A stretch of 64,000 nt of DNA, from contig CAKMIA010000003.1 in assembly GCA_927353735.1 (NCBI GenBank), forward strand, positions 1-64,000, written 5' to 3'. The position numbers were made by a program, and so were the translations under genes. Positions within the stretch are counted from its first letter, which is position 1; every line of letters begins with the position of its first letter. The notes below the pieces were generated by a model that was not told the DNA's origin, made no database searches, and worked only from the letters and a program-made list of their open reading frames with translations. Shown piece by piece: positions 61,369-64,000 of the stretch. This stretch comes from an uncultured Veillonellaceae bacterium (GTDB lineage Bacteria; Bacillota; Negativicutes; Veillonellales; Dialisteraceae).

Positions 61369-61378
61369 AACGGAAAGG

Positions 61379-61401
61379 CACCGGGCGACCGGTGTTTTTT
61401 T
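61379..61401 (+). terminator. Terminator after yebC
   Basis: CACCGG/CCGGTG with a GCGA loop followed by seven T. It ends the ylxM-yebC operon. Confidence 0.93.
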
Positions 61402-61683
61402 GTGCGCTTTTTTCACGGGGAGGAGAAATTTTCCGGCTCCGCGGGGCGCTTTCCGCGCCTGTGCCGGCAGCAGGCGATGTGCTACAATAAAGGCTGGATA
61501 TAAGGAAAGGAGGACCGGCGCCAGTGATGGCCGCCGCAGGAAAGAGGGCGTCTTTCCACAGAATTTAGTTAGAAAATTGAGGATCATGGCCGTGATCGGG
61601 ACGGCGGCGCCGTCATTGTACAGGCCGGAATTGACCCATCGGGAGATGCTGCTCCGGATGGCATGAGAAAGGAATTTAGAAGA
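61402..61683 (+). other. Leader region of the McrB-like gene
   Basis: About 280 bases. TACAAT near 61481 may be a -10 box. A strong AAAGGAGG near 61506-61513 is followed, at long spacing, only by a 12-codon frame at 61527 (MAAAGKRASFHRI). A 26-codon frame starting MAVIGTAAPSLYRPELTHRE ends at 61666 after a TGAGG site. Neither is recognised; one could be a leader peptide. Confidence 0.35.
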
Positions 61684-63915
61684 ATGGCATTTAATAATGG
61701 ATATAATTCATATTCGTCGTTTCGCCAGGAGGACGGCAAGGTCATCGGCCGCATCCGCACCGGCGTGAAAACGGCATCCCCGGCGGCGGGCGAACTGGAC
61801 TACCGTTTTTTTGTGGAACCGCTGTCCCCGCTGCCCCGGGGCTATGAGGAGGCCCGGCGGCTGGGCTTCACGGGCTTCATGAGCCGCGTGGGCTACGACT
61901 GCAATTTCTTCCCCCAGGACAAGGATGCCTGGAAGGCGCTGGAATCGGACTGGGCCCAGAGTCTGGTGCTCTTCACCCCGGCGCTGCGGAACAATAAATA
62001 TTTCGTCATCGACGACGTGCAGAAGGAAGCGGAGCCGCTCACCATGGAGGACGGCGTATCCTTCATTCCCGTGCCGGTCTTTGACGTGGACGGCGATCCC
62101 GCCTTCGACGGGGACCTGAATAAATTCTGCTGGCACATGATGGAGGGCAAGCCCCTTCCGGGCCTGTCCCGGAAATACTGGGACCGCAATCAGCGGCCGG
62201 TCTTTGTGGCGGCGTCCTTCCGCCAGCCCGATTCCCGGCGGAAGCAGTTCGTATTCTTCTCGCCCATGCAGGAGGACGCCTTCCAGAACGTGGTCATCAG
62301 CGAGGGCGGGGCGTACTTCGGCGCGGACCATCAGGATCTGGGATGGCGCGTGGTGGACCTCAATGAGCCGGACATCCATTCCCGGATCGTGCTCTGCCGC
62401 ACGGCGCCGCTGTGCTTCCTGCCGGAGACGCTCATCCCCTTCCTGAAGGAAGGCCGGATGCCCGTGCCGGAGGACGGCAATCTGCTCCGCCTCATCAACG
62501 GACGGAAGAACGGGAATCGCGCGACCGGACGGACTAACGGGGACAAATCGGCCCGGACGGAGGCGGCTGCCGAGGCGGACGGACAGGAGCCGGTGAAAAA
62601 GCAGGGAGAAAAGAATCAGGAAAAGGGCAGGAAATCGGCGGAAAAGGCGGCCCAGAAGAAGGACGACAGCCGCAAGCAGGCCGCCGAGGCAAAGGCCAGG
62701 GAAGAAAAGACGGAGAAGCCGGAAAAAGCCGAGAAGGCGGAAAAGACGAAAAAGACAGAGAAGCAGGACCGGCAGGAAAAGCCGGAAGCTGCTGCCGCAC
62801 CGGCGGAAAAGGCGGCCCCCGTGCCGGAGATTCTTACGGAAAAGGCTTTCCTGAAACGGCTCGAACGGGCTGCCCGGAATAAGGGCCTCCTCTATTCCTC
62901 CCGGGACCTCATCAATTTCCACGTGGCGCTGAAGGTGTCCTGTCTCGTCATCCTCGCCGGGATGAGCGGCACCGGCAAATCCGGCCTCGTGCGCCTCTAT
63001 GCGGACGCCATGGGCCTGCCGAAGGAACAGGCAGTGATGATCCCCGTCCGTCCCTCCTGGATGGATGACAGCGATCTGCTGGGCTATCTGGATATGAAAA
63101 ACATGATCTACCGCCCGGCCGATACGGGACTGGCGGAGCTCCTCGTGGATGCGGCGCGCCATCCGGAAAAAATGTACATCGTCTGCTTCGACGAAATGAA
63201 CCTCGCCCGGGCAGAGCACTATTTCGCCCAGTTCATTTCCGTCCTCGAGCAGGAGGAGCACCGGGTGATCCGCCTCTACAATCCGTCGCTCATGCCGCGC
63301 ATCTACAACAGCGCGTCCTATCCGGCGGAGATCCCCGTCGGGAGAAACGTGATCTTCACCGGCACGGTGAACGTGGATGAATCGACCTATCATTTCTCGG
63401 ACAAGATCCTTGACCGGGCGAACGTGATCACCCTCCATCAGGGGAAATTCCGCGACCTGGCGAAGCTGGAACGGACGGAGGCGGAGAACTGGCCCGAGGT
63501 GTCCGCCTCGGAATGGGAAGCCTTCCGCCGCACTTCCGATACGGTGGCGCTCACGGAGACCGAGCTGGACTTCCTGGACGCCCTCAATGAAGCGCTGCAG
63601 CAGGGCGGCCTGCAGGGAGGCATCGGGTACCGCGTGGCCCGCCAGATGGGGCGGTATCTCCTGAATATCCCCGAGGGAACGGAATTCACCCGCGCGGACG
63701 GCCTCGACTGCCAGACCGTGCAGCGGATATTCACGAAGCTCCGCGGCTCCGGCGAACAGCTCCAGTCGCTGGCCGCAGCGGACGAAAAGGGACGCCTCAC
63801 CGGCGACGCCGCAGCGGTGCTGGACCGCTTCTCCCGCCTCTCGTCCTTCACGGAATCCAGAAAGGTCCTTCTCCGGAAGGCGCGGGAGCTGAAACTCTAT
63901 GACTACACCTTCTGA
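61684..63915 (+). CDS. McrB-like AAA+ ATPase/GTPase with N-terminal unknown domain
   Basis: A 743-residue protein in three parts. Residues 1-270 form a soluble domain I do not recognise (RFFVEPLSPLPRGYEEARRLGF, RPVFVAASFRQPDSRRKQFVFF). Residues 273-385 are a Lys/Glu/Ala-rich low-complexity linker (EKAEKAEKTKKTEKQ). Residues 388-743 form an McrB/MoxR-type AAA+ module: Walker A GMSGTGKS (426-433), Walker B IVCFDEMN (499-506) and the sensor region TGTVNVDEST...SDKILDRANVI (559-582). The ATG at 61684 has AAGGA 10 bases upstream. The next gene starts inside its 3' end, so the two are coupled, as in McrB/McrC pairs. A role in DNA restriction or defence is inferred. Confidence 0.82.
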   Translation: MAFNNGYNSYSSFRQEDGKVIGRIRTGVKTASPAAGELDYRFFVEPLSPLPRGYEEARRLGFTGFMSRVGYDCNFFPQDKDAWKALESDWAQSLVLFTPALRNNKYFVIDDVQKEAEPLTMEDGVSFIPVPVFDVDGDPAFDGDLNKFCWHMMEGKPLPGLSRKYWDRNQRPVFVAASFRQPDSRRKQFVFFSPMQEDAFQNVVISEGGAYFGADHQDLGWRVVDLNEPDIHSRIVLCRTAPLCFLPETLIPFLKEGRMPVPEDGNLLRLINGRKNGNRATGRTNGDKSARTEAAAEADGQEPVKKQGEKNQEKGRKSAEKAAQKKDDSRKQAAEAKAREEKTEKPEKAEKAEKTKKTEKQDRQEKPEAAAAPAEKAAPVPEILTEKAFLKRLERAARNKGLLYSSRDLINFHVALKVSCLVILAGMSGTGKSGLVRLYADAMGLPKEQAVMIPVRPSWMDDSDLLGYLDMKNMIYRPADTGLAELLVDAARHPEKMYIVCFDEMNLARAEHYFAQFISVLEQEEHRVIRLYNPSLMPRIYNSASYPAEIPVGRNVIFTGTVNVDESTYHFSDKILDRANVITLHQGKFRDLAKLERTEAENWPEVSASEWEAFRRTSDTVALTETELDFLDALNEALQQGGLQGGIGYRVARQMGRYLLNIPEGTEFTRADGLDCQTVQRIFTKLRGSGEQLQSLAAADEKGRLTGDAAAVLDRFSRLSSFTESRKVLLRKARELKLYDYTF

Positions 63916-64000
63916 GCGGCTCCCCTTTGAGGTGTGCTTCCGCACGAAGGAGGGCGAGCGCCCGCTGCTCCGGTTCACCGAGGACAGCGCCGCGGAGAAT
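63899..64000 (+). CDS. Partner of the McrB-like protein, 5' part only
   Basis: An open frame starts at 63899 (MTTPSERLPFEVCFRTKEGE) and runs 34 codons to the window edge without a stop. It overlaps the McrB-like gene by 17 bases. Proteins encoded after this type of AAA+ are often DUF2357/PD-(D/E)XK nuclease-like partners, but the visible part is too short to identify. It is a real start by position and coupling. Confidence 0.6.
   Translation, partial: MTTPSERLPFEVCFRTKEGERPLLRFTEDSAAEN

Follow-up and report, generated by a model that had tools for sequence, protein, structure and literature searches.

A cnuB/cnuC-like gene pair without detectable CnuA in the family of Dialister and Allisonella

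A coupled cnuB- and cnuC-like gene pair

Two plus-strand genes at the right-hand end of the window, the 64,000-nucleotide stretch analyzed here (positions 1–64000 of contig 3 of a 1.77-Mb draft genome), encode a McrB-family AAA+ GTPase and a partner of the McrC family. The first, a cnuB-like gene (61684–63915), encodes a 743-aa NxD GTPase and was recognized from its open reading frame, conserved start, AAA_5 and PADLOC matches and place in a GTPase-domain tree. The 743-aa form begins MAFNNGYNSY, with AAAGGAAT upstream of the 61684 start. The earliest in-frame ATG, at 61663, is an alternative start that would give 750 aa, but comparison with homologues supports 61684, the start assumed in an earlier note on this DNA, as the one conserved among relatives. 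The product matches AAA_5 in Pfam (E = 9e-7), and its best PADLOC profile, as for its Bacilli relatives, is PDC-M26A (E = 7e-40), with the best stretch of the match spanning part of the GTPase domain. In the PDB, the only sequence matches of this domain were to E. coli McrB, with weak E-values. A 756-aa frame is also open antisense to cnuB (61708–63978, minus strand); with a GC3 of 0.82–0.88, it was treated not as a gene but as what it most likely is, a by-product of high GC3.

The AAA+/GTPase domain (62836–63915), placed by motif positions and invariant columns, contains the Walker A motif GMSGTGKS (62959–62982, residue 426 of the 743-aa form), the Walker B motif CFDEMN and the sequence TVNVDE (63364–63381, residue 561). 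In our alignment, all three are kept across the family, with TVN(V/M)DE in 11 of 11 complete CnuB sequences and NxDE in every aligned Bacilli relative. The earlier note had picked out these motifs correctly and had taken NVDES to stand in place of the NT.D pattern of classical McrB; the motif is real, but it is no arbitrary replacement, since McrB motifs of this NxD form, shorter by one residue, are already known. They mark a branch described in a census of McrBC systems (Bell et al., 2024; PMC11090510), the CoCoNuTs and their relatives, in which NxD takes the place of NxxD and the next residue is usually E or D. With its NVDE motif and an adjacent DUF2357-containing McrC homologue, the pair falls within this branch.

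N-terminal to the GTPase lie two regions of very different character. Residues about 1–276 (61684–62511) form a beta-rich domain, delimited using AlphaFold2, Foldseek and alignment with Bacilli homologues. The AlphaFold2 model (mean pLDDT 86.6) has weak OB-fold-like matches: nearly all of its top Foldseek matches in the PDB are OB folds (best E = 0.1, none at E ≤ 0.001). No YTH-like part could be made out in the model, a profile search of the domain against the PDB returned nothing significant, and Pfam gave no match to DUF3578/ADAM in the cnuB product. The domain is likely a sensor, and its modeled OB-like fold would point to RNA or single-stranded DNA as the cue. Its proposed novelty as a specificity domain did not hold up: the alignment places the same domain in homologues from Peribacillus, Paenibacillus, Neobacillus and other Negativicutes, so that we rejected the idea that it is unique to this pair, and the architecture corresponds to that of published Type I-B CoCoNuTs.

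Residues 277–384 (62512–62835) form a charged, low-complexity linker, identified by its dN/dS, indels, composition and repeats. Estimated earlier at some 110 residues, it spans about 108, is rich in Ala, Lys and Glu (22 A, 21 K and 18 E) and contains a degenerate 9-bp tandem repeat (62704–62787). Linker length differs widely among species, and large indels separate congeners. The linker is enlarged in one 862-aa CnuB (G005, L051:11047-13635), where low-complexity sequence rich in Lys, Glu and Ala extends over some 200 residues.

The cnuC-like gene starts with an ATG at 63899, 17 bp inside the 3′ end of cnuB, and runs off the window (63899–64000, plus strand) to contig position 65638. An identical 17-bp overlap was found in 14 of 14 pairs checked, which chance cannot explain. 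From this overlap the earlier note had proposed a McrB/McrC-type coupled pair and had suggested reading to the right of 64000 in search of a DUF2357 or PD-(D/E)XK fold. Completed from the genome beyond the window, the gene (L002:2900-4639) encodes 579 aa and contains both, as predicted, each above its Pfam cut-off: DUF2357 (PF09823) at residues 119–292 (E = 5.4e-7) and PDDEXK_7 (PF04411) at residues 377–539 (E = 3.6e-7). Since the catalytic set P462-D463...D481-x-K483 is invariant in 31 sequences, we rejected the possibility that the nuclease is degenerate, as it is in many CoCoNuTs. The top Foldseek matches of the CnuC model (pLDDT 78.9) are Ig domains, all weak (best E = 0.046), and a profile search against the PDB yielded Filamin-A at E = 0.14 and nothing significant.

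In the window, the pair follows an ffh-rpsP-rimM-trmD-yebC cluster and lies behind a terminator-like hairpin after yebC (61370–61403, plus strand; two terminator-like sites versus a mean of 0.4 in shuffled sequences). The hairpin suggests that the two genes form their own transcription unit. An Rfam search of the region gave no match.

Distribution, inheritance and surroundings

CnuC is present as a single copy in 12 of 12 genomes of the family that contains Dialister, Allisonella and their allies, a sample of four genera in which two genomes are only 75% complete; with 12 genomes, rare absences could be missed. Carriers include Dialister succinatiphilus, D. micraerophilus and Allisonella histaminiformans, and genomes as small as 1.3 Mb. 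Among 252 genomes of the class, only two distant carriers of CnuC were found outside the family, and none of the genomes searched from sister families in the order had it. The closest relatives beyond the family are mainly from Bacilli (Peribacillus, Paenibacillus, Neobacillus, Cohnella and others). Occurrence is patchy in the Peribacillus kribbensis family, where 2 of 43 genomes encode CnuC. The Bacilli also provide examples of decay, which was not seen in the Dialister family: cnuB appears split in Caenibacillus caldisaponilyticus (L084:6085-8011), and Bacillus sp. OV166 has what looks like a truncated pair (L090:6478-8891).

Trees of CnuB and CnuC agree with that of IleS, recovering the same genus groups and, where supported, the same order within Dialister. 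In the GTPase-domain tree, the family forms one clade (100/100), which adjoins a sequence from a Phascolarctobacterium MAG (95/79) and lies within a 100/99 clade together with I-B-like sequences from Bacilli that have the I-B gene order. The GC content of the pair genes tracks that of each host genome, from 33% to 67%. Since the trees match IleS, GC follows the host and the sequences are monophyletic, the pair is inherited vertically within the family. Selection differs along the proteins, with dN/dS of 0.10–0.20 for the GTPase domain and the nuclease, 0.05–0.34 for the CnuB N-terminal domain and 0.37–1.02 for the linker. Branch lengths indicate an evolutionary rate several-fold higher for the pair than for IleS.

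The chromosomal location of the pair has changed between genera, and its neighbors, which are mostly metabolic or housekeeping genes, differ among them. One copy adjoins an ISL3 transposase, and transposases lie near some copies. A clear defense gene adjoins the pair in only one of about ten family neighborhoods, that of Veillonellaceae bacterium DNF00626 (G007), where a GajA/OLD-like AAA-TOPRIM gene is directly downstream (L053:12738-14357). According to the earlier note, the finding that the genes are universal, single-copy core genes outside defense islands would refute its reading; this description fits the pair within the family, where it is in all 12 genomes and has mostly housekeeping neighbors, but not outside it. 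About 81 kb from the pair, the same contig encodes HsdS, a Type I RM specificity subunit with two Methylase_S repeats (G000:C3:146195-147310). We also compared the pair with Type I RM (PF01420), taken as an example of patchy occurrence, but the contrast is weak, since Type I RM occurs in 9 of the 12 family genomes.

CnuA and the possible function of the pair

Type I-B CoCoNuTs usually contain CnuA, a separate coiled-coil protein with a receiver-like (REC-like) C-terminal domain (Bell et al., 2024; PMC11090510). In the Bacilli relatives, a gene for a 300–390-aa coiled-coil protein with a small C-terminal domain directly precedes cnuB. A profile built on the C-terminal domain of CnuA gave no match in any of the 12 family genomes at E ≤ 1 but recovered five of six positive-control genomes, including that of L087, which had not contributed to the profile. 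CnuA has likely been lost from the family. Because the control that was missed, the Phascolarctobacterium MAG (G023), has a diverged coiled-coil gene upstream, it is also possible that a highly diverged CnuA has been relocated elsewhere in the family genomes. The idea that the linker replaces the CnuA coiled coil is not supported, since neither its length nor its sequence is conserved.

Among the Bacilli, Metalysinibacillus jejuensis encodes an 870-aa CnuB (L089:5399-8011), no separate coiled-coil gene was seen upstream on the same strand, and the protein is perhaps a CnuA-CnuB fusion. Near the Type I-B-like operon of Peribacillus kribbensis is a gene for an Hsp70-family protein with an inserted PIN nuclease domain (L069:10867-13212; HSP70 E = 2e-70, PIN_4 E = 9e-21), possibly an associated effector or chaperone.

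If CnuA is gone, what does the pair do? We favor, with a probability of about 0.6, the view that it is a Type I-B-like CoCoNuT lacking CnuA, which entered the Dialister/Allisonella lineage once, before the family radiated, and has since been inherited vertically, with phage defense as the preferred output. The pair probably still acts as a nucleic-acid-triggered nuclease defense, a judgment drawn from its relatives and not from its genomic context in the family. By analogy with E. coli McrBC (PMC11090510), CnuB would assemble into a GTP-hydrolyzing ring, and its N-terminal, probably OB-fold-like domain, held on the flexible charged linker, would bind a nucleic-acid cue, which could be modified or unusual RNA or single-stranded DNA. 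If CnuC behaves as expected from E. coli McrBC and from the CoCoNuT census, its DUF2357 stalk would dock in the CnuB ring and stimulate hydrolysis via the NxD motif. The docked CnuC would then bring its PD-(D/E)XK nuclease onto nucleic acid, resulting in cleavage, and this activity might be directed against phage.

Fixation across a family is unusual for defense systems. The defense reading is weakened both by this family-wide fixation and by surroundings in which the neighbors are mostly housekeeping or metabolic genes and only one of about ten neighborhoods has a clear defense gene. The main rival is that, after losing CnuA, presumed to be its death or signaling subunit, a former immune CoCoNuT was domesticated as a core module that is no longer mainly anti-phage, a constitutive RNA/DNA-triggered nuclease serving housekeeping or stress functions such as RNA/DNA quality control or a response to overcrowding or stress. 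Such domestication would fit the single-copy presence in 12 of 12 genomes, down to those of 1.3 Mb, as well as the agreement with the IleS tree, purifying selection, host-like GC, the mostly non-defense neighborhoods and the loss of CnuA itself; it would also be in line with the stress response proposed for CnuA-less relatives (PMC11090510). However, the several-fold faster evolution than IleS, the relocation between genera and the intact nuclease would all be expected of a retained defense system too, and we regard domestication as rather unlikely, though worth serious consideration.

It is improbable that the pair carries out classical Type IV modification-dependent DNA restriction in the manner of E. 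coli McrBC and that its N-terminal domain recognizes methylated DNA. The two-gene logic is the same, the partner combines DUF2357 with PD-(D/E)XK, and E. coli McrB is the only PDB sequence match of the GTPase; however, the motif is NxD rather than NxxD, DUF3578/ADAM was not matched, and the N-terminal domain is without a PDB profile match and resembles, weakly, OB folds and not ADAM. Finally, a recently mobile defense-island module, its presence in all genomes being an accident of sampling only 12, would accommodate the differing locations and the transposases near some copies but is very improbable, recent acquisition being rejected on host-matched GC, agreement with the IleS tree and monophyly (100/100), to which the absence from the sister families of the order may be added.

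Comparison with known systems

The pair shares with E. coli K-12 McrBC its organization as a two-gene operon, in which an AAA+ GTPase is joined by a DUF2357/PD-(D/E)xK partner. It differs in having NxD where McrBC has NxxD, in the absence of the ADAM/DUF3578 specificity domain and in an N-terminal domain unrelated by sequence. PDC-M26A, the best PADLOC profile for the McrB-like protein, is a phage-defense candidate model only, and our literature search found no paper naming it. The one paper found to contain both "Dialister" and "McrBC" uses McrB as a laboratory reagent and does not appear to describe such a system.

In Pseudo-Type I-B CoCoNuTs, CnuA has been lost and only CnuB and CnuC are present, as in the family pair. 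These systems, for which a response to overcrowding or stress was proposed, come from Bacillus islands that also contain a quorum-sensing synthase, a mechanosensitive channel, transporters and stress genes (PMC11090510). The family pair differs in belonging to a monophyletic group in Negativicutes and in its mostly housekeeping surroundings; compared by eye with the published list (quorum-sensing synthase, mechanosensitive channel, transporters), the family neighborhoods do not correspond to these islands.

The closest correspondence is to Type I-B CoCoNuTs, in which CnuB has a CSD-like OB N terminus, often a YTH-like domain, and an NxD GTPase without a fused coiled coil, and CnuC consists of an Ig-like N terminus, DUF2357 and PD-(D/E)xK (PMC11090510). 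The pair resembles them in its NxD motif, in a GTPase without a fused long coiled coil and in a CnuC with DUF2357 and PD-(D/E)xK, and it may also share the OB-like character of the N-terminal beta domain of CnuB and the N-terminal beta-sandwich of CnuC. The match is strengthened by the Bacilli relatives, which share the N-terminal domain and also have the upstream coiled-coil gene. In contrast to Type I-B systems, the family pair has no adjacent CnuA, has a long, variable, charged linker and is fixed family-wide. The modeled OB-like and Ig-like folds are hints that agree with the Type I-B description, without being proof, as none of the structure matches reaches significance (every E ≥ 0.046), and likeness to Type I-B was judged from the published description and from the clade shared with Bacilli sequences of I-B gene order rather than from the authors' reference sequences.

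As of 2024, no NxD-type McrB GTPase had been characterized (PMC11090510). This minimal two-gene NxD system, found in all the genomes examined from a family of human-associated anaerobes, should provide a tractable test of what the branch does and should be useful for asking if such systems can do without CnuA and if core functions can arise from restriction-like systems. Both the branch and the N-terminal domain are known from earlier systems; what is new is a gene pair that is CnuA-less, vertically inherited and family-wide.
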